64,000 bases of DNA, from the NCBI RefSeq assembly GCF_040436345.1, contig NC_133225.1, positions 20,378,040 to 20,442,039 on the forward strand. Reading direction: 5' to 3'. The notes beneath the pieces were generated by a model, which did no database searches, had not been told where the DNA came from, and saw only the letters and a list, made by a program, of their open reading frames with translations. The position numbers and the translations under genes are program-made. Every line of letters starts with the position of its first letter. Position 1 is the stretch's first letter. The stretch is from Pagrus major (Eukaryota > Chordata > Actinopteri > Spariformes > Sparidae). This document shows, in pieces, positions 16,301 to 64,000 of the stretch.

Positions 16301-18555
16301 TTTAAATGAGATAATTCATTTTATCTTAAAAATTAAATACTGTATGTGTTTCAGTCGATACCAATTTTCCATCACATTAATAAAATATAGAGCAGCAATT
16401 GTGGCAAACTGCAGTTCTCGTGAAGATCTATGATTGCTCAGAAAAGCTTTCTTTAAAGGGTTGAGGGAGCGTGGGAGAGAGTGATGCAATTAACTCATCC
16501 TGAGTATACAAATGCATTAATAAACACGCCTGTTACTGTTTGGAAACCCAAAATCATGGAGTACCTATCCAGGAAAGGTAATTTAAGATCATAACCCTGT
16601 GTGTAAAAAAAAAAAACGTATTCCAAGAGCTTTGTTAAAACCTACTGTGCATAGAATTTTTGCTTTGGACTCCCGCCCAGACGCTTGTGAAAAGACTTTG
16701 ACCCAACTGCCATCGTTAAAATGATGATAAAACCCCCTGAAACACACACATCTTAAAAACTGTTTTTGGTGATGTATAATCCATTTCTGGGCCTTATTTG
16801 TTGTTTGATTGTTTGAAAGATCATGGTCAACCCTATATTACAAGGTTTTTGGGGATCTACTGAGATATACTCATGCTTCTGCAGGTTTCCTCTAACAACG
16901 CATCTTTGAGACCTCTTGCAATTCTGTTCGACTGTAACGATATACAGTATATGGTCATTTGTTGTCGGTTTTAATCAAAGCTTTTTGTCTGCAAGTCAAA
17001 TTTCCTTGCTTTAAAGATTATTTTAAATTTAGTTAGACCATTTGACATTGATCTTCTGTCACAGAGCCACCACCTACTTCCTTTGGTGAAGTCATTGTTT
17101 GGGGTTACAGTCAGCATTTGACTTCCTTGTTTCCTAATTGCCTTCTGACCTTTTATCAGTCACAATTTCCTCAAATATGACTCAGCTGTCTTTGTTTGAA
17201 ATGGGCAGATCACAGGCTCTGCAATCTAAGGGTTGGTGAATGACCTTGACTTCAACCTTGACCCACCCACACCCTGCTGCATAATAACAAAAAGTTGAGA
17301 TGAGCTCCCTGTCTCTATTCTTTGAGCCTTTAACTGGAACAAGTGTATAGCAGAGTTGAGAACCACTGTTAATTTCCTGCTAATATCAGAGACCATTGTC
17401 CAACCAGCTACAGGGATGGTTGAGATGTGATGGCCAGTGAGCGAAGGGATTGTTCATTTAAAAACAACAAAAGCAGCTCTTCTTACTGTGTTTGTGACGT
17501 TTTTCTGGACACCAGTGACTCTAGAGAATATACTGTAGATAACTGATTGTTGAGTCTTATTCCAAGGTCACCAAATAACGATCCTTTAAGTTGGTGGCTC
17601 ACTAAAGTGTCAAAACTTGCAATCTCGGGACGACACTCAACAATCAACTTTGAATGGTGTGTTTGCAAACAGCAACTAGCAGGTCCTGCATAGTAAGCCT
17701 TTAAATAGACTAAACTGTGACTTTTTAGGTATATTCACATAAAGTTTGGAATAATTTTATTCCTAAAATATGATCTTAATATTTCCATTCATCTCAGTAC
17801 TGAATAATTCTGAATAACAACAATGATTCACTTTGTCTTGACAGGAAGCAACATTCTGTAATTGCAGAACAGTCCTTCATGTCCTCTGTTTGAACCTTTA
17901 TTGTATGCTGTCACAACAGTACCCACCACCTAAACTGAGATCAGAGATTCTGTCAAGCAGTAACCAAGTAATGCAGGTTTTCAATTTGCTCTGTCTTGCC
18001 AACGGAAATGATTCCTTCACCTGACCTCTTTGAAATCTACTTTAATCTATCAAACGGGGGTCCAAAGGAAACAGGTTTAATCTTTTGATTCAAGTGCCCC
18101 TCACTGAGTACAAATTCTCTTTAAAGTATGAGTTGGCAGCATGACTCGGGAAGATCAAACTGTTGCTGAGGTTGAAATAGTGACATCATCAATTTAAAAT
18201 TGTTTAAATTGATTTTGGGAAGACAGGATTATGGGAAAAAAAACTCAAGGTTGACTGCTTTGGTTTCCAATTACCGTGACCTTTTCCAAACACTGATGTC
18301 CCACCATATATTCTGCTTTTAGATGAATTTCCATCCAAAAATATAATTCACTTACTGTGTTGTCTTTTTTCTTTCTCTTTTTTTCACTTATGTTGTTATC
18401 TGGTGTGGCCAAAAGGGCAAACGTCAAGCTGAGGAGGAATGGAGTGTGTAGGAGTGTGTCCATTCTGGCAGTGACCCTCAGAACTCAGACAGACAGCACA
18501 ATGTAAGCGCAGCGGGGTGAAAGTTAACCTGGTTCTGCAGAAAGTCACACATTTG

Positions 18556-18556
<1 letters not shown>

Positions 18557-18635
<79 letters not shown>
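18557..18635. repeat. (AC)n microsatellite, about 79 bp
   Basis: An uninterrupted AC dinucleotide run of nearly 40 units. It generates spurious Thr-His and Cys-Val frames on the two strands. It is long enough to be highly polymorphic. Confidence 0.98.
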
Positions 18636-18636
<1 letters not shown>

Positions 18637-20346
18637 CCAGCCATCCATTACTCCAGTCCTATTATTCAAGCTTACGTCCCCCCCTTTCTCCCATTTCTCA
18701 CGCTTTCTTGTACTCTGGCGCAGTTCCTGATTTTATAGCGACTGGACCAGAATGGAGAAGAAGAATTACGTCAGTTCATATTGTTGGTCAGACATCACAC
18801 AAACAACAGCTGGCACACATAAAATCAAAGCACTAAGTAAATGCAGTCAATAAAACCTGTGGAGGCAAGACTTAGAACCGCTACTCTACATCACAAAGTC
18901 AGGTCGTCCACTGTCAGTGGCATGATGGTAGTCTTAGTTGGTTAGTCCACAACTTTGGTCCAGACGGTCACAACTGCATGTATTGCCATGAAATCTAGTT
19001 CAGACACCCCCAAAGACTTTTCCTCTAGTGCCATCAGCAGGGCAATTTCATTTGTCTGAGTTTATTACGTTTATTGCTGAAAAGCAGATATTAACATGCT
19101 AACGTGCTAACCCAAGATGCATGTTAGTACAGTCATTGTGAGCATGAGAATGACAATTAAGTGTCCAATCCAGTATTGTATCAAGAGTACACTGAAACTC
19201 TTTTGTGAATAATCAGTCAAATTGGACACACATTATGATCCCAGTAGCAGTTGGCAACAGTCAACAGAATCAAATGAAAAACGACTGGACAAAAAGCAAA
19301 AATGATGCTGGACTTGCTGGTCTAGTTTTTTTTCCCAGGCAAAGAAAAGCGGGCTTTATTTTGAACTACTGCATTACTCAAATCCCCCACTGATATAATT
19401 GGCCATAACCAGAGCAGAGTACGACGTGCCCCTCTCCAGGCCATGGCCAATCTCCTGCACAGATCAATCAAAGCAGTTCAACACTGGCCCTTTCAGCAAT
19501 GGGCCCACTCTGGACTGATGAATGACCTTGGCTACAGTACACCCCCTGCACACACACACACAAGCACAAACCTGATGCAAACACGTGACTGCGATTGTAC
19601 AGTCAAACCAACCTGTAGCTGCAAACCCACTATTCCAAACTTAGTGCTCATCTTTTGCAGATGCTAAACATAATACATGTGCATAAGCAACCCTGGTGGG
19701 AATTAAACCATTAATCGTTAAATGTTAAAGGTATTGAAAGTGTTCATGCACAAATTGGAAACCTTCCCTGCAGCGCCACTTAGAACAACAGCGACTCTCA
19801 ACATCTTCGGTCAAAAGCTAACATGTCATGTTATGGTTTAGTCACGTTTTCCGATTTCCTTCATCCCTCTCTGACTCTCTCCCAGAAGTTATAGCGACAG
19901 GCGACCAAATGAAAGCAAAATACAGATTTCTCTGTATTTCTCTCTCATTTGGGATAATGAAAAGCATTTTTATGATACAACTTATCTTCTTAGTGTGTCA
20001 TGATCAGGGCCTTGAGATTTGTAATTACCGAACTAAGTGGCACATACCTATCACAGCTAGTAAGTTAGTTTCAGGTTATGTCATTTGTCTCCACTGACTC
20101 CGTCCTTTTGTTCTCAATGTCCTCCCATTGTAAGCATTTATTCAAGTGTGTATGACGCTACATTTCATAAGTGGGTCATTTTATGTGCAAGGAAGCCTTT
20201 AATTAGTAGTCCGCCTACACTGTCTCTACATCCGCACTGAATTGGCACCTGAACATGTGAGCCCTTACATGTCCATGTTAGTGCAATAGTTTGATAGCTA
20301 TTAGCAGAAAGAGTCATTGAAGATTAATGTCGGGTAAGGAGGTGTT

Positions 20347-31987: not shown

Positions 31988-34700
<2,713 letters not shown>

Positions 34701-46294: not shown

Positions 46295-49200
46295 ATGCAG
46301 ACGTCACATTGCGGGGCCCCCAACCTCCTGCTCATCCTTCTGGGCCCCATGCTTTTGGCTGTGGGCCGGGCCGCTTTGGAGAGCCAAGGTGAGGAGACGA
46401 CAGAGTTATTATTTGCTGCCTGTGGTTGGGATATTAGTAGCACTGTGTGGGCAGACAAATGGACCCGCAGGGCGACTCAAGCAGGTAACCTCAACCTGGA
46501 AAAGGGTGAGTGTGCGATGACTGAATGTGCCTGAGAACGTAAGCACAAACTCAGGTTTGTAGATGTAATGAGTCAGTTGGTGTAGATGGACAAAAGTGTG
46601 TGAGTATATTTTTTCCTGTGTCTACCTGTTTATGTAAATTGTGGGACAGACAGTTTGCCTTTCAGTTGTTTTTGTGTGTGGCCGGAGGAATGTTCCTTTT
46701 TGACTTCTTTCACTGTGAGGCTCCCAGAGGCATGAACGGACAACAACCAGAATGTCTTCCTGGCTATTTTTGTCATTTTGACACCTCTTTAGAAGCCTCC
46801 TCTCTTGTCTAACCCAAGGCCAAATACAATTCAAAGTGTCAGAAAACGGTAGAGGGGGATGCCTTGAATTCACTCGAAGCCTCTCTGTTCTGGAGCTTTA
46901 CCATTCCGCACAGGCCAACACAGCACACCTGCACATACTAAGCAGTCAATATCACTCACACCGATTCTCTACATGCTGCATCTCTGAGATCCATAGCCAT
47001 CCACACTGCCTACACACATATCTCATTCTCAATATGTGTGTGTTTCCACGGCGCAGCGCTGTATGAACTTGAGAAGGAACCAGCCTATTGGGATGCTCAG
47101 GCCAGGGCAACACTAGATGCTGCGCTGAAACTCCGCCCTCGGGACCATCAGGCCAAGAACCTCATCCTGTTCCTCGGCGACGGTAGGTCATGCTTTCGTT
47201 ATGTAATCCACTCCGGCAAATACCAACTTGGTTAAAGTTTGAGCAGAAAAAGTTGCTGCTGGATTGAGGGATTGGGTGTGATGGGTAGTGCAGGCGTGTG
47301 ACCAGATTTGTAAGAGCGGATGAGCTAGCGGTCATAATAAAACTTTGACCAGCTTTGGTCATTTGTTCAAAAGCTCTAGATTGATTGTGTGAGCTTGACA
47401 AGCCACACTAAGAGTTGTGTGAGTAATGACTCAGATATAGAAAGGCAGAAGCAGTGTGACATTAATCTCTTTGACAGGATGAGTTCACATCTCATCCCTG
47501 TGGATCCCCCTGAGGTCAGTTGGGAAAAAAAGAGCAATGTGTGAATCTGTACTATTTGCATGGTTTATAAACCAGTCTCTCGTATTGATAATCCATGCCC
47601 ACGGAAAATCTTACTATAAATATATACAGATGTATATATATATGGTTAATGTTAGCACAAGAACACTACAAATTCACATTTGAAGTACACTAAAGTGCAA
47701 ACACATTTTATAAACGGTGCACAACAATTTGTAAACCAAGAGTTCAGATTTACACTTTTTTTCTCAGCTGACCCCAGGAGGATCCGTAACCAAGTGGTTT
47801 TAGTTGCCCGTTAACAGTAACTGTTGTTGCTAGCTAAAACACATTGTGTGTAACCCTGAGGTCTCACAAATGTGTTGAGTGCAAACATTTGCAGGGCAAA
47901 TTGTTTAGAGCATTTTATATTGTGCATTGTTTACATCCACGTTTTCCTGCCAGCAGTTTTCTTTTTCACTGCATGTGTTGGCACATCGTCTGTTGGGGCA
48001 CTATTCGCAAAAAACATTGTTCAATAACATTTTACTGGTCAAATACTATGCAGGGTACCTCAGAGGTGGAAGTCAGTTTGGAGGTCTTCACCCTGAAGAG
48101 CCACTACACGCTACATGTCTCCTGCTTTAGCAGCGTGTTGCATTTAGTAACTCGACTGTCTACAAAACAGACGACTGGTGCCAGTTTGGGAAAGTTCCCA
48201 TCTGAAACGGATTTGTCAAATTTTTCACATTAATGGTCACTCGCATCGGGTATTTACTCGGTGAGGCATGAGAGAAATTTTTGTTTAACGTGCAGAGATT
48301 TAAGAGTGTTTGCCCTGTTAACTACCAGAATATCTGCTTTAAATCAGCCCCACTGAGTCATATTTCTGGGTGGTCGAGTCTTCTTTGTGTATTTCGCCAG
48401 CAATGCCCAGCCCAGAGCATGTTCTCAGTTTTATGACCGTAATGTTGAAGGGAGAGTTAAGTGCATCATAGTGCCATGGGCTTCGTAAAATATGGTTTTC
48501 AAAGTCAGAGGTCAAATCCAACAGTGGATCACAGGAAGATATAAAACAGGTCCCTTAAGTGATTTAGAAAAAGGCATTTAGTGTATGTTTTATGTAATAA
48601 ATGCAAAATAGTGACTTAGCAGTACCTTTGGATGTTTATATGTTATATGTTCTGTCAATAGTGGTCTGATAAATTGCCCGGAAGGGTCAGTGTTTGGCCT
48701 GTGTGGTGATTTTGTTCGAAATTGTGGTTCTCCTACAAAACCACTTCCCCTAAATGCCCTGTATTTGTGGATTCAGTTGATGCTAATGGCCTTGACTGTG
48801 TTTGCTCAGGGAATTACCAAATCAAAATGTTTTCCTCTCATGTGACAGTTATAGCCTGAGCTTTAAAAACTAACACATTTTAATATTGTCGTCCTGGATT
48901 TTCTAAATGTCCACAAACTGGACAGAGAACTGTATTCTTGGGTCTTCAGAGCACCAAAACCTTCACATGACATTAACACAATCCCAATATTCCTGATCAT
49001 TCTTTAATATGTCATTCAATATTTCAGTAGACTTGTGCTTGTGAAATTAAAAAACTATAGATTGACCCTAACTGTTACCTTCACCTGTCAATCATTATCT
49101 CCCAGGGATGGGCGTGTCCACAGTGTCAGCAGCTCGGATCCTGCGAGGTCAGATGGAGGGCAGATCAGGGGAGGAAACAATGCTGGCCATGGACACCTTC

Positions 49201-52200
49201 CCATATGTGGCCTTGTCAAAGGTGATAACACACCATTGTTGAGTCTTCAGTCATTACACTCAACCACCAATTACTGTGGAATACAACACAATTTCTGATT
49301 CAAAAGAGCCAGTAAGGTTTAATCATATAACTTCAGATGTGTTTGATGAATTATTTCTCAGTTTTCAGAGAGAAGATTATTTTACAATCAGTGCTCTTGT
49401 CTTGTACTGGTAGTAACATTTTTCATTCACAACATGCATCATCTAAAGCTTTTCAGCTTGAATACTTGATTTTCATATATTTATTATTTACCAGTGAATA
49501 CCTGTACATGTTCCTGACCTCATTACAGTTTAACTTTTTTTTATAGCTTATAGCTTATAGTTTATCGTTTATAGCTTTTAATAGTGATCACTTTACTACT
49601 GTATCCCCTTAAAAACATCTGATTTGTGCAGTATTAGCTGTTTTATTTTTAAGTTCAAATGAGAAAAGCGAAAATAATGGCATTGCTCTGATTTAACACT
49701 TTTCACGCATAAAAGCGTCATGCTCAAAGTTATAAAGCAGTTTTTATTATGTCTCTGCACTCTGTGACCTCTGAATTGCTTTGCCTCCAAACACACACAC
49801 ACACACACACACTATCAACATTGATATCAGTGGATGGACTCCAAGATTGACCACTGTTGTTAAAAGATGCGTGTGAGAGAGAAAGAAAGTGAGAGTTCTC
49901 ACATGCTTGCATGTATTTTGTGTGTGCACGTGTGTGTGTGTGTGGTTGCTTGGTAAATAAATCAATACAGTGAGACACATGGAGAGACACAGAGACAGAC
50001 AGTGAGAGGGAAATAAACATTCAGAGATGCTCTGCAGATGAATCGTAAAGAAGGCTGGGGCTTAGCATGTGTGTGTCCATGTTTCTCATGCTTTGTTCTC
50101 TTGACATGTTGCATCTTGCCTCATACCAATCCAGCTCTGATTTAAGTACTCAAACCTTTGTGTGAAAAGACTTTCTTCAGGGGATTTAGCTACAATCAAC
50201 ACTTTAAATGAAAATGCTGACATTGCGGCAGAAACAGATTTAAAATCAAATTAAAGTTGGATTCATCTTAATGACTGCGTATAATCCCTCAATTATTGTA
50301 ACTAAAGTGTAAGTGTGAGTGAGTCTGAGTGTTCAGTGTGTGTGTTCTTACCTATAATATATGGAAAGGTAAATACTACCTGTTATGTCTTTACTGATGT
50401 TTCTGCTCCACAGACCTACAGTGTGGATAAGCAGGTAGCGGACAGCGCTAGCACGGCTACAGCCTACCACTGTGGAGTGAAGGCCAACGCTAAGACAGTG
50501 GGGCTCAGCGCTAAGGCAGTGGCCTACGAGTGTAACACAACGTTCGGTAACGAGGTCTACTCTGTGCTACGACGCGCTAAAGCACAAGGTAAAGACACTA
50601 AATGCCTTGGCTGAGTGGTGGGTGTGTGTGTAATGGAAAGGTCAGCTGTTTTGAAGTACATTCTTATCTCAAGATATGCACTGACCATTTTACAGTTCAT
50701 CTGAAAATGGAATACGAGGAATAAAACAATCATCTGATAAGCACCTTCCTCGCAACTTGAATGTCAGCAGTTTTAGTTCAATGTCCAGAATAGATCGAAA
50801 TAATATATCATTTCACACTGACCAGCGTTTGTGCTTCTGATCCAACAACATGTGCACAGCCTGTTACGATTCCTGTTTGAGGGTTCATTAGTGTCCATTA
50901 TGAGAAGTCTTTATCTGAAGTCTTTCTGCATCTCTCTCTCATTATATCAGTGCCCTACATGGATACAGTGGTTTTATACATGTTAATAGCTATTGCAGCG
51001 TGTTTAGAAAATACAGGAGCATTTGTTTTCTGATTTTATTGTGAAGCAATAAAGTTTTAATGATACCAATTTTAAGGAGGCAGTACTTCTTTGTTGAAGT
51101 CAAACAGCCAAAATGTTTCCAAGGAAAGTTAATTGGCATTTTAAGTAAACTATTGGCAGTCAGCCCATCAAACACCTGAAGCTAGTAAAACAAAGTAAAA
51201 CCAATAAAGTGGAAAATATATGTAAAGAGCAGTGGTTTCCATTTTTCACCCATTAATTGCTGTAGTAAAAGCCTTCTTCACAGGGCTTCATTGGGAAAGA
51301 TGGTAGAACCCAAAGATAAAAATTCACTTATTATCTACTCACCCCCATGCTGATGGAAAGTCAGGTGCCCACAAAACTTTTCTAGAGCTTCACAGCAAAA
51401 CAGAGTTGCAGCATTCTCCTAAACAACTGAAGTAGATGAGGACTTGTGTCCCGAAGCTCTGAGATCCTAAATTGATTTGAAAATATATTATTTACACCCT
51501 TGTCGGTGGCCGAGCTCGTACACAGCCTTCAGACGAGGTGCATGTTAACGCTTTTAGCTTTGTGGCTACATTGAAGATTTTGGCCTTTAAAAGGGTGTAA
51601 ATAACGTCTTTTCAAATCAATTTGTGGTCTTGTGGCTTCAGGAGACTTGGTATACGCTGGATGTGCTGAATGGAGCCATTTTCTTGTTTTTATTTTTATT
51701 TATTTATTTTACGTGGTAAAACAAGTCCTCAGCTATTTCAGTTGTTTAGGAGAAGGCTGCAACACTGTTTTGCTGTGGAGCTCCAGAAATGTTTTGTGGA
51801 CTGTGAAACTTCACCCAACTTTCCATAAGCAGGAGGGTGAGTAGCTGACGACTACAGTGAATGACTGAGCCAGTATCCTTGTTTCTTCCTCTAGAGCAGC
51901 TTTATATCCCAGGAAATTCTAATTAAGTAAACCTCTATCGTGTATTAAATGGCCCACTGTCATGTGTTAGTTGTTAATCTGCATCAGTGTCACAAAAACA
52001 AAATCCCACTGTGAATGATTCTCCTAACACTTTTATCTCTGATTTGTATATGTCTCGCTGTTGTCCAGGTAAATCAGTTGGTGTAGTCACCACCACACGT
52101 GTCCAGCACGCCTCCCCGGCTGCAGCTTATGCCCACTCCGTCAGCCGCAGTTGGTACAGTGATGCAGATCTTCCGTCCAGCGCCCGTAGACAGGGATGTG

Positions 52201-55200
52201 TCGACATCGCAACCCAACTGGTCACCAACGTTGACATTGATGTATGTAAGAACAAATGTGTTTGGCTGATTTTTTTTATTGCTGCCAACATATTTGAAAA
52301 TAAGTTCAAGTGAAACCAACTGCACTGTACATACTGTACTAATCCCATATGGCTCCCTGCATATGTGAAACAAAGCAGTAGTCCTGAACTTATCTCCAAT
52401 AGTAAATCCTATGATGATTGTTTTGTTTGTGATTGGATAAGGAACCGTTTGAAGATAGTTTGCAAGTACTGTCATGTAACCATACAGTATATTGCCCTGA
52501 TGTAAATGTGGGTTTTATTAGACTATGGCTCATTTTTTTTAAAGTACAATGAGTGCACAGTGACTTTGTTCTGTTTAACTGCAGAGAAGACAAATAAAAC
52601 AAGAACAAGAGGACCTTCCAGTAGAGTTCATGTGAGGCATACGTGCAAGACTCACTTTCTGATTTAGTCCAGCTTAACCATAATCATCATTCACTGAGTC
52701 ATTTTCACCCTCCTCATGAAACACAACTCTTTGGCATTCAGAGGACTTTGTTACAGTGTCACTGTAAATGTAATCATTCTGTCTGGTGTACCTTTAAGGT
52801 GATTCTGGGGGGAGGGAGGATGTACATGACACCAAAAGGCACCCCAGACCCCGAGTACCCGACCTCAACCTCTCGCAAAGGGGACCGCAAAGACAAGAGG
52901 AACCTTATCGACGTGTGGCTGAAGGCTAAACACGTAGGTTTTGTTTAACATTGCTGTTGAATACTGCATTGTATTTTGTAAAATAGAAATCACAGACTAC
53001 ATTTTTCTCTGGTTCGTTTTTCAGAACAAGAAGTCACACTACGTTTGGCACAGGAAGGAGTTTGACGAGATAAATGTTAAAACTACAGACCGGTTGATGG
53101 GTGGGTATAGATTTGACACCACAGACAGATGTTGAACGGATAAGCAGATACTCGTGAGCTTACTGCAGTGCATAATACACATACTGACACCATATAGTAC
53201 ACATAGCACACAAGTAGGATAGACAGGCAGGCATATAAACAAAATACATAATGCCTGTGTAACACATCCATCATGTAAAAACTCACACACACATAAACAC
53301 AATATTTTAAACTCTTTGTACACCTTCATCGGTAGGAACTAGAAGAGAAACACCTTTTTGACAGGAGGGGCACTTTAAGGTAGTTAAGCTCCCTTAAAGT
53401 GCCCCTCCTGTGACGGTGAAAGCAGCACGTGTGGCCATGACAGCTCACTGTGTCAGTTGCACCATCGATATTACGCTGTTGCTTCTTATCTTAATTATGA
53501 AACCTTCTCAGTGGCTTAAAAAAAGAATTCCAGTAAGGTCAGCTTTCATCTTTACAGCCATGCAAAGTAGGCATGACTGTGCCCTGTAAATGCACAGTTA
53601 GCTGGTATTATCAACCCTACCTGTAGTCATAAAAACCAAAGGGCATGTTTCTTGCTGCGATGCGTCTGACAGTAATACAGATGCAGCTGAACTGTTATCA
53701 TATTGCAGTCATATTGCTTTCATGCATAATGAAGTAATGCGTACTATCTGAGATCTTTACTACTGTTGTTTACCTACTAAAGAACAGGCCTCTCTAAATG
53801 GCAGTAATTAAGTCTTAGTATTATTAACATGAAGATAGACAGAAATGTTTAATGGCGTAATTTGTAAGTGATTTATGAATAAATGGGAGTCATTATCTTG
53901 GAAGCAGCTTGGATTTAACTGTGAATGTTAGCAAAGCATGTCAGCTAAATAACAAGGTAAGTCAATCTAGTTTACAATCAGTCAGTTCAGTGATTTTCCT
54001 CTTTACTCTCTCACTTCCTCCCGTCTTGTTTTGCTTTACTCTGTCTTTAGCTCTGTCACTTTAGATTTAACTCGTCATTACCACTGTACAATAGTGTTTT
54101 TTTTATATGTTTTTTTTTATTACAGTAAAATATTCTGTCCCTTTGTTTGGTGGTTCCAGGTCTGTTTGAGCCGAAGGACATGAGATTTGAGGTTTTCCGG
54201 AACAACACACGTGACCCCTCCATTGTGGAGATGACAGAGAAGGCCATACAAATCCTCAGCAAGAATCCCAAAGGATACTTCCTGTTTGTGGAAGATGAGT
54301 ACTACAGTAATGCTGCATCAGCACTATTAATATATCATCATGAAGAATGAGGGTACCTTATTGTACCTTGAGTGACCAATCCATGTAAAATAGAGTATCC
54401 ATTAGAGTTTTCATTCTTTAATTTTCTAAAATGCTTTACTTGATGCTCATATGAGTCTAGTAGAGGTGTACTAGTCACATGTTTTGGGCCAAGTCTAATT
54501 TGCTTGTTTTGTGTTGTTCTGTTACGAGGAAGAATCGATCACGGCCACCACGATGGCATCGCCAAACTGGCACTGACAGAAGCTGTGATGTTTGACCGAG
54601 CCATTCAGCGAGCAGCACAGCTAACCAGAGAATCGGATACTCTCACTGTGGTCACTGCTGACCACTCCCACGTCTTCACTTTTGGTGGCAACACACCTCG
54701 AGGGAATCCCATCTTTGGTATGAGTCAAAGCACAAACACTTGAACGTGGTCCAGACAGAAACTGGCTGGAAAAGTCAAGAATAGCAAAGGGATTTGTATT
54801 TGGATGCAAAACACACAGAACTAGCCTAGAATTAAAAAGTTTTAAGACATTTACATATGTCGGTGATTACTCAGGCTGACCTGAATGCTTCTAAGATGCT
54901 ACTGTTGCCTTGGTAATTGACCTCCAAGGAGGAAAAGGGAGGATCGAGAGTGAGAAATGAAGCTCCTCTATGGTGTTGCGTTTTGTTTTCTTCTCTGTGA
55001 GTGCACAGAACAGTATCTGTGAGTGGAAAACCATCTTCGGGAGGGCATAATTCTGTTCTGTGTGCTCAAATGCAATCCCGCGAGTACAGGGTTGTGATGA
55101 GTGCATGCTTGACCCTCTTTGTGCCATGAAACTGCTTGCCAAGACCGTGGCTGATGTCTCCCCTCTTGTCCTCATCGCAAATCACTCCCATAATAACAAT

Positions 55201-57669
55201 AATATCAAAGTATATGAGTAAATAATGACCACAAAGTTGAGGAAAGTATGATAGCTTGTGTTACCCCCTTCACCTCGTTGAAGCTTTGAATATTCACAGG
55301 TTATTCTCACTAAAGCTTCATACCAACAAAAATTGGTATTTGTCACTGACTGTGACAAATGACTGTGACTGTGACAGACACAGTGACAAATATCACTCAT
55401 GTTCTTCTCCATATTTTGTCTTTCAGGTCTGGCACCAAAGAAAGCCGATGACAAAATGCCTTTCACCAGCATCCTTTACGCCAACGGCCCTGGTTACGTC
55501 CACATAAATGGAACCAGAGGGAACATCACAATGGTGGATTACTGTAAGCACAAACTAATGTCTTTCAGATGCTGCACTCGTCTGTGCTGATGTGTGTACA
55601 GACAGCGTGAACTGATGTGGTTACGGCTGACTCATGCCTGTGTTTTACTCTGGAAAGCGTAGATGAAATATGATGTTTATGGCATTTATTGTACACTCTT
55701 CTGTTCCAGTCTCTGCACAGGCCTCTGTGTCTACATGTAACTGCGCTTGAAAAAGGCTGTTTGTATTTCTTTGTGGAAGACTGGACAGCAATGATCCAGG
55801 TCCTCCTCCTCTTGTTCTGCATCATTCGCTTTAGTCATTGCATGAGTGTGTATACTTGAAGGTGGAAATACTTCTATCCAGGGATGAATTGCCTTTTAAA
55901 ACCCCCCAATTTTGTCTTTTTGAATGGCATGGCGTCATTGTATGTTTTTGGAACCAGTAATTGTGTCTCAAAAGTGCACACTCATCTGGTACCTTACGTA
56001 AACATGCAATTACAAGTGAGGGATTCATTTCTAAAACTTTATGCATCATCGAAAGAAATATGAAGCACTGTTAAAGTAGGCATTTAGATTCTGTTAAAGG
56101 TTGAGGCCAAAACACTATTGCAGTATTTTTTAGAGAAGAGCTATGACTAGCCAAAAAGAAATGAAGGTGTCGAACAGATTTGGTAACCATTATTTCACAA
56201 AAACTAAGGACCCTTTTTTAAAACTGCAGTTGTTTTCTACCACAACAGCAACAGCACTTTAGTATCCTACTTGTTTTCCAGCATTGTATGTTTGTTTTTG
56301 GGGAGGAATAATTTATGTAATCTGCCAGTACACTTCACTTTAGAAAGGTCAGGGAGTAAATGCTGTAATTTTATCAAAAGGACTTAAAGTACCTTCTGGG
56401 TTTTGCAAGTGTTGTAATTAAGTTTAATTAGGTAAATTACAGAAGATTTACAAAACACCATTTTGTGGGCAAAACAGCCACTAAAACATTTATGAGGCAA
56501 ATGTAATCTGAAAGATGTTCTCTGGTGTGGGTGGTGTTTGAACTGACGAACAAAGGGGATCCTTGAGTGTATACACATGACACATTACATTGTGTTGTTG
56601 GTCATTCATGCTGCTAGTCTGATCACGTGCAACATAATGTCCAGTTGCGTTTCTCCAAAAGAGTTTGTCAACTTGGACGCCGCCGGCTGCATATTTTTTT
56701 GGCAGCCCCTGCGGTCCACAGCCAAAACTGTTCTACCTTCATCAAAATGAATGGGAGGCCCGGCATTTTTGCCACAATGCCGGGTTTGGTCTAAGTATTT
56801 TTGTTGCCTAAACCTGGCCAAATAAAGACAGAAAACCCTAAAAGAAACGAAAATTAGTAACTGAACTAGGTGTAGAAGTCAACCGTCTTATAACAGATGC
56901 CAAACAACATCCGAACCAGAATCCAAAATCCTACGCTTTACCAGCTCAGCCACAACATCTTGCTACAGATGTGGTTTTCATCACAGTTTTACAAGTAAAA
57001 ATAATGCTCCTGGAGCTACATTAATTATGATGTTCCAGAAACAACACCAACATGAGTCTCAAAGCTATGACATCACAACAATGTAATTGTTCAGTTGCAA
57101 TGATGGCCCTGGAACAACACTAATTATGATGTTCTAGGAACAGATACACCTCATTTGTATGGCTCAGTGCTGTGAGCAAACACTATTTAAATAGTCTTAG
57201 TAAATAGTCTTAGTAAATAGTCTTCTTGTAGATGACACACAGTGAAGAAGAAGTTAATCTGGACTAAAAAAAGATCATGCTTCATTTATGATGACACATC
57301 TATAAAAGCATCTGTTTTGCTTTAACAATTCATGATCCAGGCAGAAAGTTTGCACACGACAGTGTTTTCTAACACTCTTCTCATCTCTCTCCAGACGATG
57401 AGGAGTACATGCAGCAGGCTGCCGTCCCATTGGATGCTGAGACGCACGGCGGAGAAGATGTGGCCATCTACGCCAAAGGCCCAATGGCTCACCTGTTCCA
57501 CGGGGTTAAAGAACAGAACTATGTGGCGCACGTCATGGCCTACGCTGCCTGTTTAGAGCCCTATAGGAACTGCCCGCCTCACCCCCACAGCCACACCTCG
57601 AGTGGGAGTGCAAACACACCCTCAACCCTCCTGTTTGGCCTTCTTGGTCTCCTCTGTCTACTCAGATGA
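46295..57669 (+). CDS. alpi: Intestinal-type alkaline phosphatase, complete 11-exon gene
   Basis: A GPI-anchored ectoenzyme that hydrolyses phosphate monoesters at alkaline pH; intestinal forms dephosphorylate luminal substrates including bacterial lipopolysaccharide (family knowledge). Exons: 46,295-46,388, 47,057-47,182, 49,106-49,221, 50,414-50,588, 52,069-52,241, 52,799-52,933, 53,025-53,100, 54,160-54,294, 54,526-54,717, 55,427-55,543, 57,395-57,669. They join in frame to 537 residues (human ALPI 528). Residues 1 to about 26 are a signal peptide. Visible active-site residues, with spacing as in human placental ALP: Asp73 (GDGMG), catalytic Ser123 (VADSASTAT), His184 and Ser186, Glu343, Asp348, His352, Asp389-His390 (TADHSH) and His464 (THGGED). 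N-glycosylation sequons include NTT and NNT. The C-terminus has a small-residue region then a Leu-rich tail, a GPI signal. Intron 8 lacks GT and is best read as AT-AC. The intestinal-type call is by sequence resemblance. Confidence 0.93.
49793..49811. repeat. (CA)n microsatellite in intron 3 of the alkaline phosphatase
   Basis: About nine CA units; a matching TG-type run lies about 110 bases downstream (about 49,921-49,943). The two are inverted relative to each other. Confidence 0.9.
51322..51862. mobile_element. Palindromic MITE in intron 4 of the alkaline phosphatase
   Basis: The element begins ATTCACT and ends AGTGAAT. The left arm (about 51,322-51,505) and right arm (about 51,583-51,862) are long inverted copies of each other. 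For example, cctaaacaactgaagtagatg on the left corresponds to the reverse complement of catctatttcagttgtttagg-like sequence on the right (about 51,728-51,750), and aattgatttgaaaa on the left pairs with ttttcaaatcaatt on the right. The right arm has about 80 extra bases. No transposase is present. It could fold into a long hairpin in the pre-mRNA. The superfamily is not determined. Confidence 0.75.
53361..53411. repeat. Perfect 20-bp stem, 11-nt loop hairpin in intron 7 of the alkaline phosphatase
   Basis: The left arm 53,361-53,380 (acaggaggggcactttaagg) is perfectly complementary to the right arm 53,392-53,411; the loop is 53,381-53,391. Pairing stops sharply at both ends. Perfect complementarity suggests a recent origin or selection. 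It could be a foldback element or a small-RNA-type hairpin. Confidence 0.9.
54295..54525 (+). other. AT-AC intron (intron 8 of the alkaline phosphatase)
   Basis: Exon 8 reads ...Phe-Val-Glu-G and is followed by atgagtact, not gt. Exon 9 must supply GA-GGA-AGA-ATC-GAT to rebuild the invariant Glu-Gly-Gly-Arg-Ile-Asp; the bases just before it are ...ttctgttac. So the intron runs AT...AC, 231 bases. The donor is a normal gtgagt with base 1 changed to a, and the acceptor has a pyrimidine tract with the last base c instead of g. This is the U2-type AT-AC pattern, not the U12 pattern (ATATCCTT donor). The alternative AG two bases beyond (54,527-54,528) would also stay in frame but delete one Gly and shift the Glu-Asp-His metal-ligand spacing by one. 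Confidence 0.75.
57188..57225. repeat. 13-bp tandem repeat in intron 10
   Basis: The unit taaatagtcttag is present almost three times in a row. Confidence 0.9.
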
Positions 57670-59134: not shown

Positions 59135-60593
59135 AAACCTAAGCCTTTGGCCTCTTGGCCTTTGTCATGGGATCATTTCAGGTATCAGTTAAAGTACAAC
59201 TGCAGTATAATGTATTTCATCTAAGCACACTTTGGAGTTGTACTAACACCTTGGTAGTGTCCAAAATCCAAATACATTGGAAACCCTGGAAACACAACAA
59301 AATGCCACATAAACATGCACAAAGCAAAACATCACCATGTGTTCTTTTACAACAATTCATTCACTTCAGTGATACTTTAGTCATAAAGCCTATTAAAGGA
59401 TCGACCCTGGGACCTTTCTGTAACTGGAATCAAAGTCCATGGCACTGACAAATGAGGGAGGTCAAGTTCATTCTGTGAATCCTTGCAACACAGGCTGTGA
59501 AATGCTGTATCGCCTCATTGTCATACTTGTGTCCATAGAGTCAGTTCTGTTTTCAGAGCTCATTTTTTACAATATCCTTTGCTGTAATCCGCTCAAATGC
59601 TGATACTGACAAAAAAATCTATGTGACCTTGCGACGGTCTGTCTGAACCACAAGGCCAGTCGGTGTAACAGCGCTGAGGGTTTTTAACCACACTGCTGAA
59701 AAACATCACACAGATGTGCAGTCAGACCACCTGAACACTCACAGACTCACATGTTATCAATTAATTCTGCCACAAATTCAAATAAATAGTTCCTCTGTTA
59801 GAAAACTGTTTTAACAAAGTGTGGACTGAATTCTGGCCAGCTTAAATAGTAGCTGTAGAGGTTAGTAAAGCTGCGATAAAATATGTACAATAAAACAATG
59901 TAATCATCATCATTATTATGTGATGATTTATGGTGGCCATAAGACAATAATAACTGAAGCTGCTCCTGGTTAACATTCAACATACAGTGTGCAATATTCC
60001 AACAATAAAATCAGATAATGGATTCATTAGATCACAGTTAAGATTAATAATTAATAAGCCTCATTTGCATTTTCTGGTGTCATTTTAATTGTATTGCTCA
60101 CCACGATGGCATCGCCAAAATCACTTCAACATAAAAGATATATATATAATTTCCAATCAGGTTTACCTGAAGACTACAACATACACATTTGTATTCTACA
60201 GTATCTATTTAAACCAGAAGTGAAGGTATTCCTCTCTAATTTGCTGTCCATACCACAAAACTTCAAACACAGGGGTACTAAAAAAAGAGTAATGCCATCA
60301 CAGCTGTGATGGTATCTTATCTTGTAAAACAACTAGTAACTAAAGCTGTCCGGTAAATGTAGTGAAGTGAAAAGTATAATATTCCCCTCTTTATTGTAGA
60401 ACTGTAGAAGTACAAGGTGGCATGTGAAAAAAAAATACTCACGTAAAGTAAGAGTAGTACAAATGTATACTTAAGTACAGTACTTGAGTAAATGTACTTT
60501 TTTGTGTGTTTATGTGTGTATGTGTGTGTGTTGTATATCCTCCTGCTCACGTTGAAAGGCTCCCTCATGCGCCCTTTGCTCCTTTGCTGCAAC
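59135..60593. other. Spacer between the two alkaline phosphatase genes
   Basis: No complete exon is visible. It contains a 21-bp match to exon 9 of the upstream gene (see separate entry) and short A-rich and TG tracts. Confidence 0.5.
60099..60119 (+). pseudogene. 21-bp relic identical to alkaline phosphatase exon 9
   Basis: The bases caccacgatggcatcgccaaa are identical to 54,546-54,566, the part of exon 9 encoding His-His-Asp-Gly-Ile-Ala-Lys in the metal-binding motif. The sequence around it no longer matches and no other exon remnants are evident. A chance 21-bp match inside one 64-kb window is unlikely, so it may be the last trace of a decayed third tandem copy; gene-conversion debris is also possible. 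Confidence 0.4.
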
Positions 60594-60674: not shown

Positions 60675-63600
60675 ATGGCCGGCACACACAAACTCATATT
60701 TACTGGATTACTGATTTTCCTTTCAGTGAAGTGGACCGTGTCTGTTTCAGGTAAGGATATGTTACATATTGATGTTTTTTGATTATCTCCAGAAACTAAG
60801 AATGCTGACTTTCAAACTACATTTGAAACACAACACAGACATGCTGTAGGATACATTCAGGAGTAAAAGTAAAAGTCTACATTAAATTTAAGTTGTACGA
60901 GCTTAGATAGGTCCACACACTTACAGTGTAAAAATATATTTGAAATGCCACTTCTGTTTGTGGATCACTATTGTCTTTTCTGTGCTCATAGAGGAAGAGC
61001 TCCATCCCGATTACTGGAACAATAAAGCGAAGCAGGCTCTTTACACTGCAATGAATGCTCAGCCTAATATCCACAAAGCCAAGAACCTCATCCTCTTCCT
61101 GGGGGACGGTGAGTCTGAGAAAGGAGCTTTCACACAGTTCAAGTACTTACTTTGATTTTATAACATTTTCACCTTTGAGTTCAGTCCGTTTGTTCAGGTG
61201 AGAAGAAGCCATCAGAGCTTGAAAGTGTGAGCCTCATCATCATTGTGGAAAAGAGAATGCAATGCAAACCCAATGCACTATGTGACCCCAGAAAGTGTGG
61301 GTTTATGGGGAAAGGGAGATGAATGTTGATACCTGATCACCAGCAGTTACCGCTGCTTGGAGAGCCAAACATAACAAAGTGAACTGAGGCTAGACCACAG
61401 TCTACACTGCATATGTAGCTATTTCCTCATGTTCTTAACTGATCTAAACACCAAAAAAGGTAAACCACTGCAAGGAGTTCAACTAAGGACATGATGCATA
61501 ACTTAAGGTCAGGTTGACTGTTAAATCTCTAAACTGTTTGGATGACTGGCTACTATTTCTGATTAAAATCTCTGTTTTGGATCATTTATTTACAATCAGC
61601 AATCAATAATTAACCATGAATCCAGTGTAAAGAAGTCGAACAAGATGGGCTGATATTTGCTGATAAGTCATGTGGCCATGACCCGGGATCTCACACACTG
61701 AGATAATTACTGCCATTTACTTCCTTTTGTTTCCGTGATCCAAGATCAGCATTTGGCAACTCCACTCGACTAAATTTGATAGATGAATTATGGATTTATG
61801 ATTACAGTTGCCTCCACCCCCACCCACACACATGCTGATTGCAGCACACTTAAGATTTTATCAGCATTTGGGAGTGATCAGTAATGTTTAATCACCCCAT
61901 AAGCGGCATATTTGTGAAAACAAACTGCAGAGTTCTCACTGTATGAATGACACAGTGGCAATACCTTCTTAAGGATGAATAACATATTCACCCTTAAAGG
62001 CATAATATCAAACATTTCAGCATTAAAATGTCTAAAAATGATTTGACCTTGTAAGGTTTGGCAAAAGAGGACTCAAATACAAGACACCAAGACAGACGGC
62101 TAGAAAAAAACAAAAGCTGAAGTCCCAAAAATCAATGACAGGCAACAAAATAGATAATTAGGTTGTGGCAAATAATAACAAAAAAAAAAAAACTTAAATA
62201 AAAATACAAAAAGCCTAAACTGAGAACAAACCATATAGGTACCGGAACAAACCAGGAACATTAAAGACAAAGGATGAGTGAACGCAGGAGGACATGAGGA
62301 GCAAAGCAGGACTGGGAACAGATGTGAAAATGCAGCAGTGACACGAGGACTAAAAGAGGCAAACTGACAACAAGTGAGGGAAAACACATGGACGAAACAA
62401 ACAAGGACGGTTAACTAATGAAACACAGGTGAACGGGAAAAAAGGCAGGATAAAGACAAAGGCAGGAAATATAAAAAACAAAAAATGACATGAGGATGTA
62501 GCCTTCAAACTGTGTTCAAACCCAGAGAAATCTTTATTCAACGTAAAGGTACATTTCACCTGGTCACCTGTTAATAGCACCGTATCCCCTTTACCCCCTC
62601 TAGTAGCTATATTTATCAAGGAAACACCATATGCTTCAGAAGGAAGTCACTCAACTACCTGGCTAGACACAATATTGTTTACTCTTGCTCACGCATGATA
62701 GAGCAAGATTATTAATTTTCATCGACTTTAGATTGCTGCAGTTATGAGTCCTAAAACCAGAATTGAGTAAGGTTGTCTCATCTCAAAGTCAATGGGTTTT
62801 TTGAGCGCAAGCTTGAAAGATGAATAATAAACAAGACAGTAAATAACCCTTCCAGTAAATTTTAAAGCTTTAAAGAGCCTTAAAAAAGGAGGTTGCTGAC
62901 GAGAGGCTAAATGAGGTTTTCGGGACATTAAACATCAGAATGCCAAACAGAAATGAATCTATTCACTAGTCCGCCTTTACAGCCTTGTTGTGTTATCCAA
63001 GACAACAACTCCCATGATCCCATATTACTTCACAACATCATCAATCTCCGTCTTTTCTTACTGTTTTGAGGCAGAAATTACAAACTGTGAAAGTGATTTG
63101 ACACACGAACATTTTGCAGATTTATGTTGGGAAAACTGTTTATTTAACTTTAAAAACATATTGAATCTGATGGTCAGTTAGATGACCACAGCGACAATGA
63201 CAAAATGATGACATGACGTGGTTTACATATAGTTACTAACACACAAATACAGTGCAGAAAGAGAATCAGTTCATGCTTTATTCAGTCAAACTATAACATG
63301 CAGCAGTGGAGCGTAAAATCCCAAAGAATGTTGGAAAAAATATGTTGGATTTTTCATGAAATATAAGAAAGAATAAGAAAAGACATTTCTGCTTGTAAAT
63401 AACTCTTATGTATGTCTCTCACTGCCCTCTATCAGCTGAGGTGTATGAGGTTCACAGAGCACAATGGCATCCCTGTGCCTGCCTGGCCGATGTTATCTAA
63501 CACTCAGCTGTGTTTCCACCTGCTTCCAGGTATGGGGATACCGACAGTGACTGCTGCACGCATCCTCAAAGGCCAGTTGGCCGGACATTCTGGGGAGGAG

Positions 63601-64000
63601 ACCAGTCTGGTCATGGATACCTTCCCACACCTGGCCCTGTCTAAGGTCCGTCCTCACTGATCAACACATTCAGACTTCTAGATAGGAATGTGTATTTAAA
63701 CTTTCTGAATGATTTTTAGTTCACATTAGAGTTAGTGGACCCTGCTGCAAACCTTGAAACACATAATTGGAACCTGCTGTTCCATTATAATTAAAATGGT
63801 GTTTTATTACAACAACTAAATTGAAGTTATTAATGTTCATAAGTTGAGGGTACATGTGCATGCAGCCTAGTCCAAGAAATGTGCATATTAACTCATTGTT
63901 TATATTTGGCCCCCGCAGACATACAATGTGGACCAGCAGATGCCAGACAGCGCTGGCACAGCTACGGCTTACTTATGTGGTGTGAAGGCCAACTACGGCA
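60675..64000 (+). CDS. alpi: Second tandem alkaline phosphatase, 5' part (exons 1-4, cut by window end)
   Basis: Exons in the window: 60,675-60,750, 60,992-61,108, 63,530-63,645 and 63,919 to the edge at 64,000. They join in frame with GT-AG introns in the same phases as the upstream gene, and give about 130 residues. Residues 1 to about 25 form a signal peptide ([20 protein letters not shown] start) unrelated to that of its neighbour. The mature part starts [13 protein letters not shown] and carries the metal Asp64 in GDGMG and the catalytic Ser114 in [10 protein letters not shown], 50 residues apart as in the first gene and in human enzymes. The residue three before Ser is Met rather than the usual Ile/Val. 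Head-to-tail order, shared intron phases and similarity show tandem duplication. Exons 5-11, including the other metal ligands and GPI tail, lie outside the window, so intactness is not proven. Confidence 0.9.
62045..62520. repeat. A-rich, repeat-like segment in intron 2 of the second alkaline phosphatase
   Basis: The plus strand is strongly A-rich with blocks such as acacaggtgaac and gaggacatgaggag that resemble interspersed-repeat tails common in teleosts, read here on the complementary strand. The minus-strand frames are T-rich and uninformative. No ends or target duplication were resolved. Confidence 0.3.

Follow-up and report, generated by a model that had tools for sequence, protein, structure and literature searches.

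How would an alkaline phosphatase gene be spliced if one of its introns lacked the usual GT...AG ends? The first of the two tandem genes described here raises this question, as it appears to be an intact alpi gene in which an intron with the rare ends AT...AC interrupts the metal-binding motif. Do these ends stand up against neighbouring GT-AG joins, which spliceosome would remove such an intron, and from what kind of intron might it have arisen?

Results

Alkaline phosphatase genes and the model of the first tandem copy

A search of the 786-Mb genome for the alkaline phosphatase family returned 28 exon-sized matches, which we assigned to four loci: a tandem pair on contig C11 and one locus each on C2 and C6. 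The stretch analysed here (the window; 64,000 nucleotides, C11:20378040-20442039) contains the first tandem gene, copy 1, and the beginning of the second, copy 2; positions given without a contig name are those of the window. We modelled copy 1 by hand, using homology and GT/AG dinucleotides to place the exon ends. The resulting gene has 11 exons on the forward strand (46295-57669) and encodes 537 residues without internal stops. Exons 3 (49106-49221), 4 (50414-50588), 5 (52069-52241), 6 (52799-52933), 8 (54160-54294), 9 (54526-54717) and 11 (57395-57669, including the stop codon) come from both the family search and the hand-placed model, and exons 1 (46295-46388, which probably encodes a signal peptide), 2 (47057-47182), 7 (53025-53100) and 10 (55427-55543) come from the hand-placed model. 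Nine of the ten introns in this model are GT-AG, the exception being intron 8 (54295-54525, forward strand, 231 nt).

The closest solved structure to the copy 1 product is the intestinal-type chain 4kjd (E 4e-206), which we take to be from rat, and placental-type chains come next. This best PDB match and the grouping in the protein tree (see below) place copy 1 nearer to intestinal-type than to tissue-nonspecific alkaline phosphatase.

Elsewhere in the window, the 3-kb gap between the tandem genes holds a 21-base exact copy of the exon 9 motif DNA (60099-60119, encoding HHDGIAK), and the gap yielded no further significant match to an exon. The short copy could be filler DNA, a conversion scar or the relic of a lost copy. 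Judging from HTHTHT and VCVCVC translations, a long CA/TG dinucleotide repeat at 18475-18735 produces false open frames on both strands, and a Lys/Ser-rich open frame on the minus strand (31991-32287), with SSSSDEE and KKKKK runs, resembles a piece of a charged nuclear protein, perhaps an SR-like one.

Intron 8 of copy 1 and the metal-binding motif

Exon 8 ends in GTG GAA G and is directly followed by ATGAGTACT, and TTCTGTTAC directly precedes exon 9, which carries the remainder of the metal-binding motif, just as the preliminary description had reported. The boundaries read AAG/ATGAGT...TGTTAC/GA, where slashes mark the exon-intron junctions. Joining the exons across AT-AC restores Glu343-Gly-Gly-Arg-Ile-Asp348-His-Gly-His-His352 and yields the 537-residue frame. 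The restored motif aligns without gaps to the five PDB chains shown. The claim that the spacing of human placental alkaline phosphatase is kept was borne out by the gapless alignment to the placental-type chain 1ew2 (E311, D316 and H320 in 1ew2 numbering), which is presumably human. Because the AT-AC product restores the motif and does so without gaps against five chains, the first observation is right for these positions, and, as far as genomic sequence can tell, AT-AC is likely the true pair of ends of copy 1 intron 8.

The spacing of this motif was also compared with that in bacterial relatives. Among the matches listed, 548 of 594 matched stretches encode a relative, and 80 were kept; in all 80 of these listed relatives, the ten motif columns, Glu through the last His, are gapless and the Glu, Ile, Asp and last His are identical. 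The Glu-x4-Asp-x3-His spacing would be kept by AT-AC in copy 1 or by AT-AA in copy 2, and it is altered by all four GT-AG joins named below.

Among open-licence papers, the titles and abstract openings of the matches listed mention no non-canonical intron in any alkaline phosphatase gene. A search of such papers for ALPI together with 'AT-AC intron' gave zero matches, as did a search for the motif letters.

The second tandem copy has AT at the same place

Copy 2 begins at 60675 on the forward strand and extends past the end of the window. Its exons 1 (60675-60750), 2 (60992-61108) and 3 (63530-63645) and the first part of exon 4 (63919-64000) fall within the window, and the full model has 11 exons, 522 residues and GT-AG ends in nine of ten introns. 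Intron 8 of this gene (C11:20443696-20443905, locus L010) lies outside the window. It starts with AAG/ATAAGT and, by the logic of the protein, must end in CTTTAA to retain EGGRIDHAHH. A comparison with the second tandem copy had been suggested at the outset; it indeed revealed an AT start common to both genes, but an end that would be AA instead of AC. We moderately favour AT-AA as the ends of copy 2 intron 8. AT-AC II introns begin with AT and end with AC. By this definition copy 1 would belong to the class, as deduced from the protein rather than from RNA, and copy 2, with AA, would not.

The two products are identical at 319 of 519 aligned residues (61%), with saturated synonymous change (pS 0.77) and a dN of 0.32. 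Residues invariant in the four fish paralogues include, in copy 2, Asp64, Ser114, His175, Arg188, Glu329, Asp334, His338, Asp375, His376 and His450. The catalytic set, as we take it to be, falls within these invariant residues, so that copy 2, too, has the appearance of a functional enzyme.

After removal of their first six bases, the two introns 8 align no better than shuffled sequences (score 81.5; shuffles, mean 78.7 and SD 8.5; 70 of 200 shuffles as good). Both copies nevertheless have ATRAGT at the homologous base, and the probability of this hexamer directly after the conserved GAAG is about 0.0009 and 0.0011, given the base composition of the two introns themselves. Since ATRAGT has been kept while the introns have otherwise diverged, the AT donor is probably used in both genes. 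The shared AT likewise speaks against a sequencing error, a candidate explanation that we disfavour because two loci have the A in common. Nor do we give any real credence to an assembly error or a decaying gene, as the A occupies the same intron base in two separate loci and both reading frames are intact.

Donor strength and neighbouring GT-AG joins

Both introns might instead be plain GT-AG introns whose sites have shifted. Joins were enumerated within 45 bases of both intron ends. The preliminary description had held that copy 1 lacks a GT in a workable phase ahead of an in-frame stop and that AT...AG is the only other in-frame choice; both statements are wrong, as in-frame, stop-free GT-AG joins do exist. 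The nearest such introns in copy 1 run from 54307 to 54528 (forward strand; donor ACA/GTAATG, 5 of 9 consensus bases), which would give EDEYYRRIDH with three residues added, and from 54299 to 54532 (forward strand; donor TGA/GTACTA, 3 of 9), which would give EDEIDH with one residue lost. The altered motifs in copy 2 would be EDNGRIDH or EDKIDH, and none of the four joins shifts the frame or brings in a stop. The first of the copy 2 joins combines the donor TAA/GTGTAA (4 of 9) with a normal-looking acceptor, TTTAAG/TGG, and adds a single residue; it is a live rival to AT-AA in that gene.

In both copies, the AT donor agrees with the consensus at 8 of 9 bases, the sole miss being +1; for the ordinary introns in the hand-placed models of the two tandem genes, the agreement is 5 to 8 of 9. 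Duplex energies with U1 were calculated as well. They are -5.4 and -5.8 kcal/mol for the AT donors of copies 1 and 2, respectively, compared with -1.9 for ACA/GTAATG, -3.9 for TGA/GTACTA and -5.0 kcal/mol for TAA/GTGTAA. Ordinary donors in the four gene models range from -11.5 to -3.2 kcal/mol; the energies give no sharp distinction between the sites, and the copy 2 rival lies inside the ordinary range.

A generic spliced aligner did not choose AT-AC. With unusual ends allowed, it joined copy 1 at AG..AG (EDGRIDH, score 1466), and with GT/GC-AG ends only, it produced EDEIDH (score 1455). In copy 2 it preferred the GT-AG join with one added residue (EDNGRIDH, score 1450), whether unusual ends were allowed or not. 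The aligner also took odd ends in two further copy 1 introns for which GT-AG lies close by in the hand model, and we regard it for this reason as a blunt tool. Its result was counted against the AT donors but given little weight, because the scoring sets a flat penalty on unusual ends and is blind both to donor strength past the dinucleotide and to the rigid motif.

Shifted GT-AG introns nonetheless seem unlikely. The rival donors, at 5, 3 and 4 of 9 bases, match poorly next to the ordinary ones, and every one of these joins would alter a Glu-to-Asp spacing that is gapless in the 80 bacterial relatives from the matches listed and in the five PDB chains. Both copies retain the residues that are invariant in the four fish paralogues, including the catalytic ones, and a dN of 0.32 against saturated synonymous change is as expected of working enzymes. 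In addition, shifted sites would leave the well-kept AAG/ATRAGT of both copies without an explanation.

Splice signals and a proposed splicing mechanism

Both AT donors are of the U2 type with G at +5 (ATGAGT and ATAAGT). They depart from the U12 donor consensus RTATCCTTT at 6 of 9 positions in copy 1 and 5 of 9 in copy 2. Within the last 60 intron bases, the best match to the U12 branch consensus TTCCTTRAY has two mismatches in copy 1, where it lacks the branch A, and three in copy 2. These consensus forms agree with the ATATCC and CCTTAAC given in PMC3033335. A U12-type intron was rejected on these donor and branch mismatches. Of the 20 bases that precede the final dinucleotide, 15 are pyrimidines in each copy, and copy 1 contains a CTAAT whose A sits 28 nt before the intron end and is a candidate branch site.

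Exon joining requires a contact between the first and last intron bases, normally G and G. In yeast, an A at base 1 is rescued by a C at the last base, the classical rescue, and a last-base A is a poor partner for it. It is likely that the major (U2) spliceosome would remove copy 1 intron 8 (ATGAGT...CTAAT...TTCTGTTAC) with its AT-AC ends. U1 would pair with AAG/ATGAGT at all consensus bases except +1, the CTAAT may serve as the branch site, and the pyrimidine-rich tail would mark the 3' side. The first-base A and last-base C would then substitute for the usual G-G contact in exon joining.

AT-AA ends in copy 2 would need tolerance of an A/A pair in U2 splicing, or editing. AT-AA is described as the commonest non-canonical pair of U12 introns in animals and plants (PMC10639083). 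A-to-I editing of the terminal A might rescue copy 2, and perhaps copy 1, in such a way that the spliceosome meets GT-AG: an AT-AA intron edited at both ends reads GT-AG, and seven human introns with edited AT-AG or GT-AA splice ends are on record (PMC4176328). However, in folds of both introns with 60-base flanks, the splice sites are not covered by any long duplex. The copy 1 5' site is predicted to lie in a short local stem, and in copy 2 the predicted unpaired values are 0.36 for the first intron base and 0.98 for the last two, so that the predicted folds lend no support to editing of copy 2. Editing would also leave the C of copy 1 unexplained, and we consider it highly improbable.

Paralogous introns and the origin of AT-AC

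At the equivalent place and phase, the C6 paralogue has AAG/GTGAGT...CAG and the C2 paralogue AGG/GTGAGG...CAG. All nine introns of the C6 model and nine of the ten in the C2 model are GT-AG; the last C2 intron ends in GG within a badly aligned C-terminal stretch, which we regard as a modelling fault. The C6 gene is alpl-like, because it groups at 100/99 with the tissue-nonspecific chain 7yiv, which we assume to be human. The C2 gene is probably alp3, by exclusion and in the naming of PMC3469785. Since both paralogues have U2-like GT-AG introns at the same place and phase, the ancestral intron was most likely of the U2 GT-AG type.

Taken together, the U2-like donor, the poor U12 matches and the GT-AG ends in two paralogues make a U2-type AT-AC intron from GT-AG the best reading. 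We thus consider it probable that copy 1 intron 8 is of the AT-AC II kind and descends directly from a GT-AG intron. The GT-AG origin had been proposed before as the outcome of paired changes. That part is too simple, as the first-base change is common to the tandem copy, which seemingly ends in A. Because AT is shared and the last base differs between the copies, the G-to-A change was probably the earlier one, occurring in an ancestor or through an old conversion; the 3' end, with C in copy 1 and A in copy 2, would have changed later and differently in each. A single substitution in the alpi ancestor would have converted GT-AG into a weak AT-AG intron, and the last base would then have gone from G to C in copy 1 and from G to A in copy 2.

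The intron could alternatively be a former U12-type AT-AC intron turned U2-type, as proposed for sodium channel introns. This would fit the AT-AC ends and the published origin of existing AT-AC U2-type introns (PMC2831892), and the C2 paralogue intron does contain CTCATTAAC, which differs from the U12 branch consensus at two positions. Yet at the equivalent position and phase the GT-AG donors of the paralogues are U2-like, missing the U12 donor consensus at 7 of 9 (C2) and 5 of 9 (C6) positions, and the tandem copies have neither a U12 donor nor a branch match better than two and three mismatches, leaving this origin a very slim chance.

Age of the shared AT start

In a protein tree of nine rows, copy 1 groups with the intestinal chain 4kjd at 91/96, just below the starred level, and not with copy 2. 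The placement of copy 2 lacks resolution, and copy 1, 4kjd and copy 2 stand together at 70/87. Constraining the two tandem copies to be sisters is mildly rejected (p-AU 0.029, with nine rows and a group named after the tree had been seen), and a tree without the mammalian rows does not resolve the four fish genes. If the tree is right, the tandem pair predates the fish-tetrapod split, and the shared AT is very old, arose in parallel or stems from an old conversion. Published work traces zebrafish alpi.1 and alpi.2 to the tandem duplication of a single ancestral alpi (PMC3469785).

Recent gene conversion between copies 1 and 2 was rejected: among shared residues in 325-349, only 11 of 24 have identical codons, which is within the spread elsewhere, and the intron 8 sequences fail to align. 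Exon 8 identity between the copies is 39/45 in the last third and 29/45 and 28/45 in the other thirds, and an old conversion may have taken place. We tentatively raise the possibility, which we hold to be somewhat less than an even chance, that the alpi lineage fixed AT in a U2-type intron before the tandem split, possibly before fish and tetrapods separated, with no way back, and that the copies then evolved AC and AA, both read accurately by the major spliceosome.

Discussion

U2-type AT-AC introns are an established class, to which copy 1 would add one member; the unusual part, on the genomic evidence, would be a tandem pair with AT-AC and AT-AA. That two paralogues have GT-AG at the intron 8 site suggests a direct route from GT-AG to AT-AC inside the U2 class, and this differs from the published U12-derived route (PMC2831892). 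The pair would be a natural experiment on how firmly the splicing machinery is bound to GT...AG, and an AT-AA sister gene would allow the contact between first and last bases to be tested on natural sequences. If true, the genes would make up a natural U2-type AT-AN series, with a last-base tolerance above what is usually allowed. A gene predictor that accepts nothing but GT-AG would misplace the junction by a few bases and spoil the metal-binding motif, which is what the spliced aligner did here.

Zebrafish alpi.1 and alpi.2 are tandem intestinal Alp genes like copies 1 and 2, and the metal-binding residues are reported to be invariant in four zebrafish and two human Alp proteins (PMC3469785); the main text of that paper contains neither the word 'intron' nor 'splice'. 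The AT-AG intron of ACTR10 in some primates also arose by a change of GT to AT at an existing site. That change is called recent (PMC4176328), and the intron can serve as a model for the AT-AG intermediate proposed here. Unlike in the alpi copies, the last base in ACTR10 remains G, and the spliceosome may differ too, because a zebrafish actr10 intron is mentioned among the U12-type introns. The GA-AG introns of FGFR genes, which are conserved in FGFR, resemble those of alpi in that the first dinucleotide of a U2-like intron is broken (PMC4176328), whereas in alpi the change is at the first base and the last base is not the same in the tandem genes.

The closest parallels are AT-AC II introns such as SCN4A intron 21, SYCP2 intron 5 and TAF2 intron 1, which combine AT-AC ends with the major spliceosome (PMC8280824, PMC2831892, PMC7072748), as proposed here for copy 1. 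In human cells, 85 major AT-AC introns 'or related subtypes' have been examined (PMC8280824), and in C. elegans, which seems to be without three snRNAs of the U12 spliceosome, at least 42 AT-AC introns are suspected to be real (PMC3033335). The donors of the sodium channel AT-AC II introns have G at +5, like that of copy 1. U2-type AT-AC introns have been proposed to be trapped descendants of U12-type introns (PMC2831892); in contrast, the alpi paralogues point to a U2-type GT-AG origin, and the alpi intron differs further from the AT-AC II introns in having a tandem counterpart that is seemingly AT-AA.
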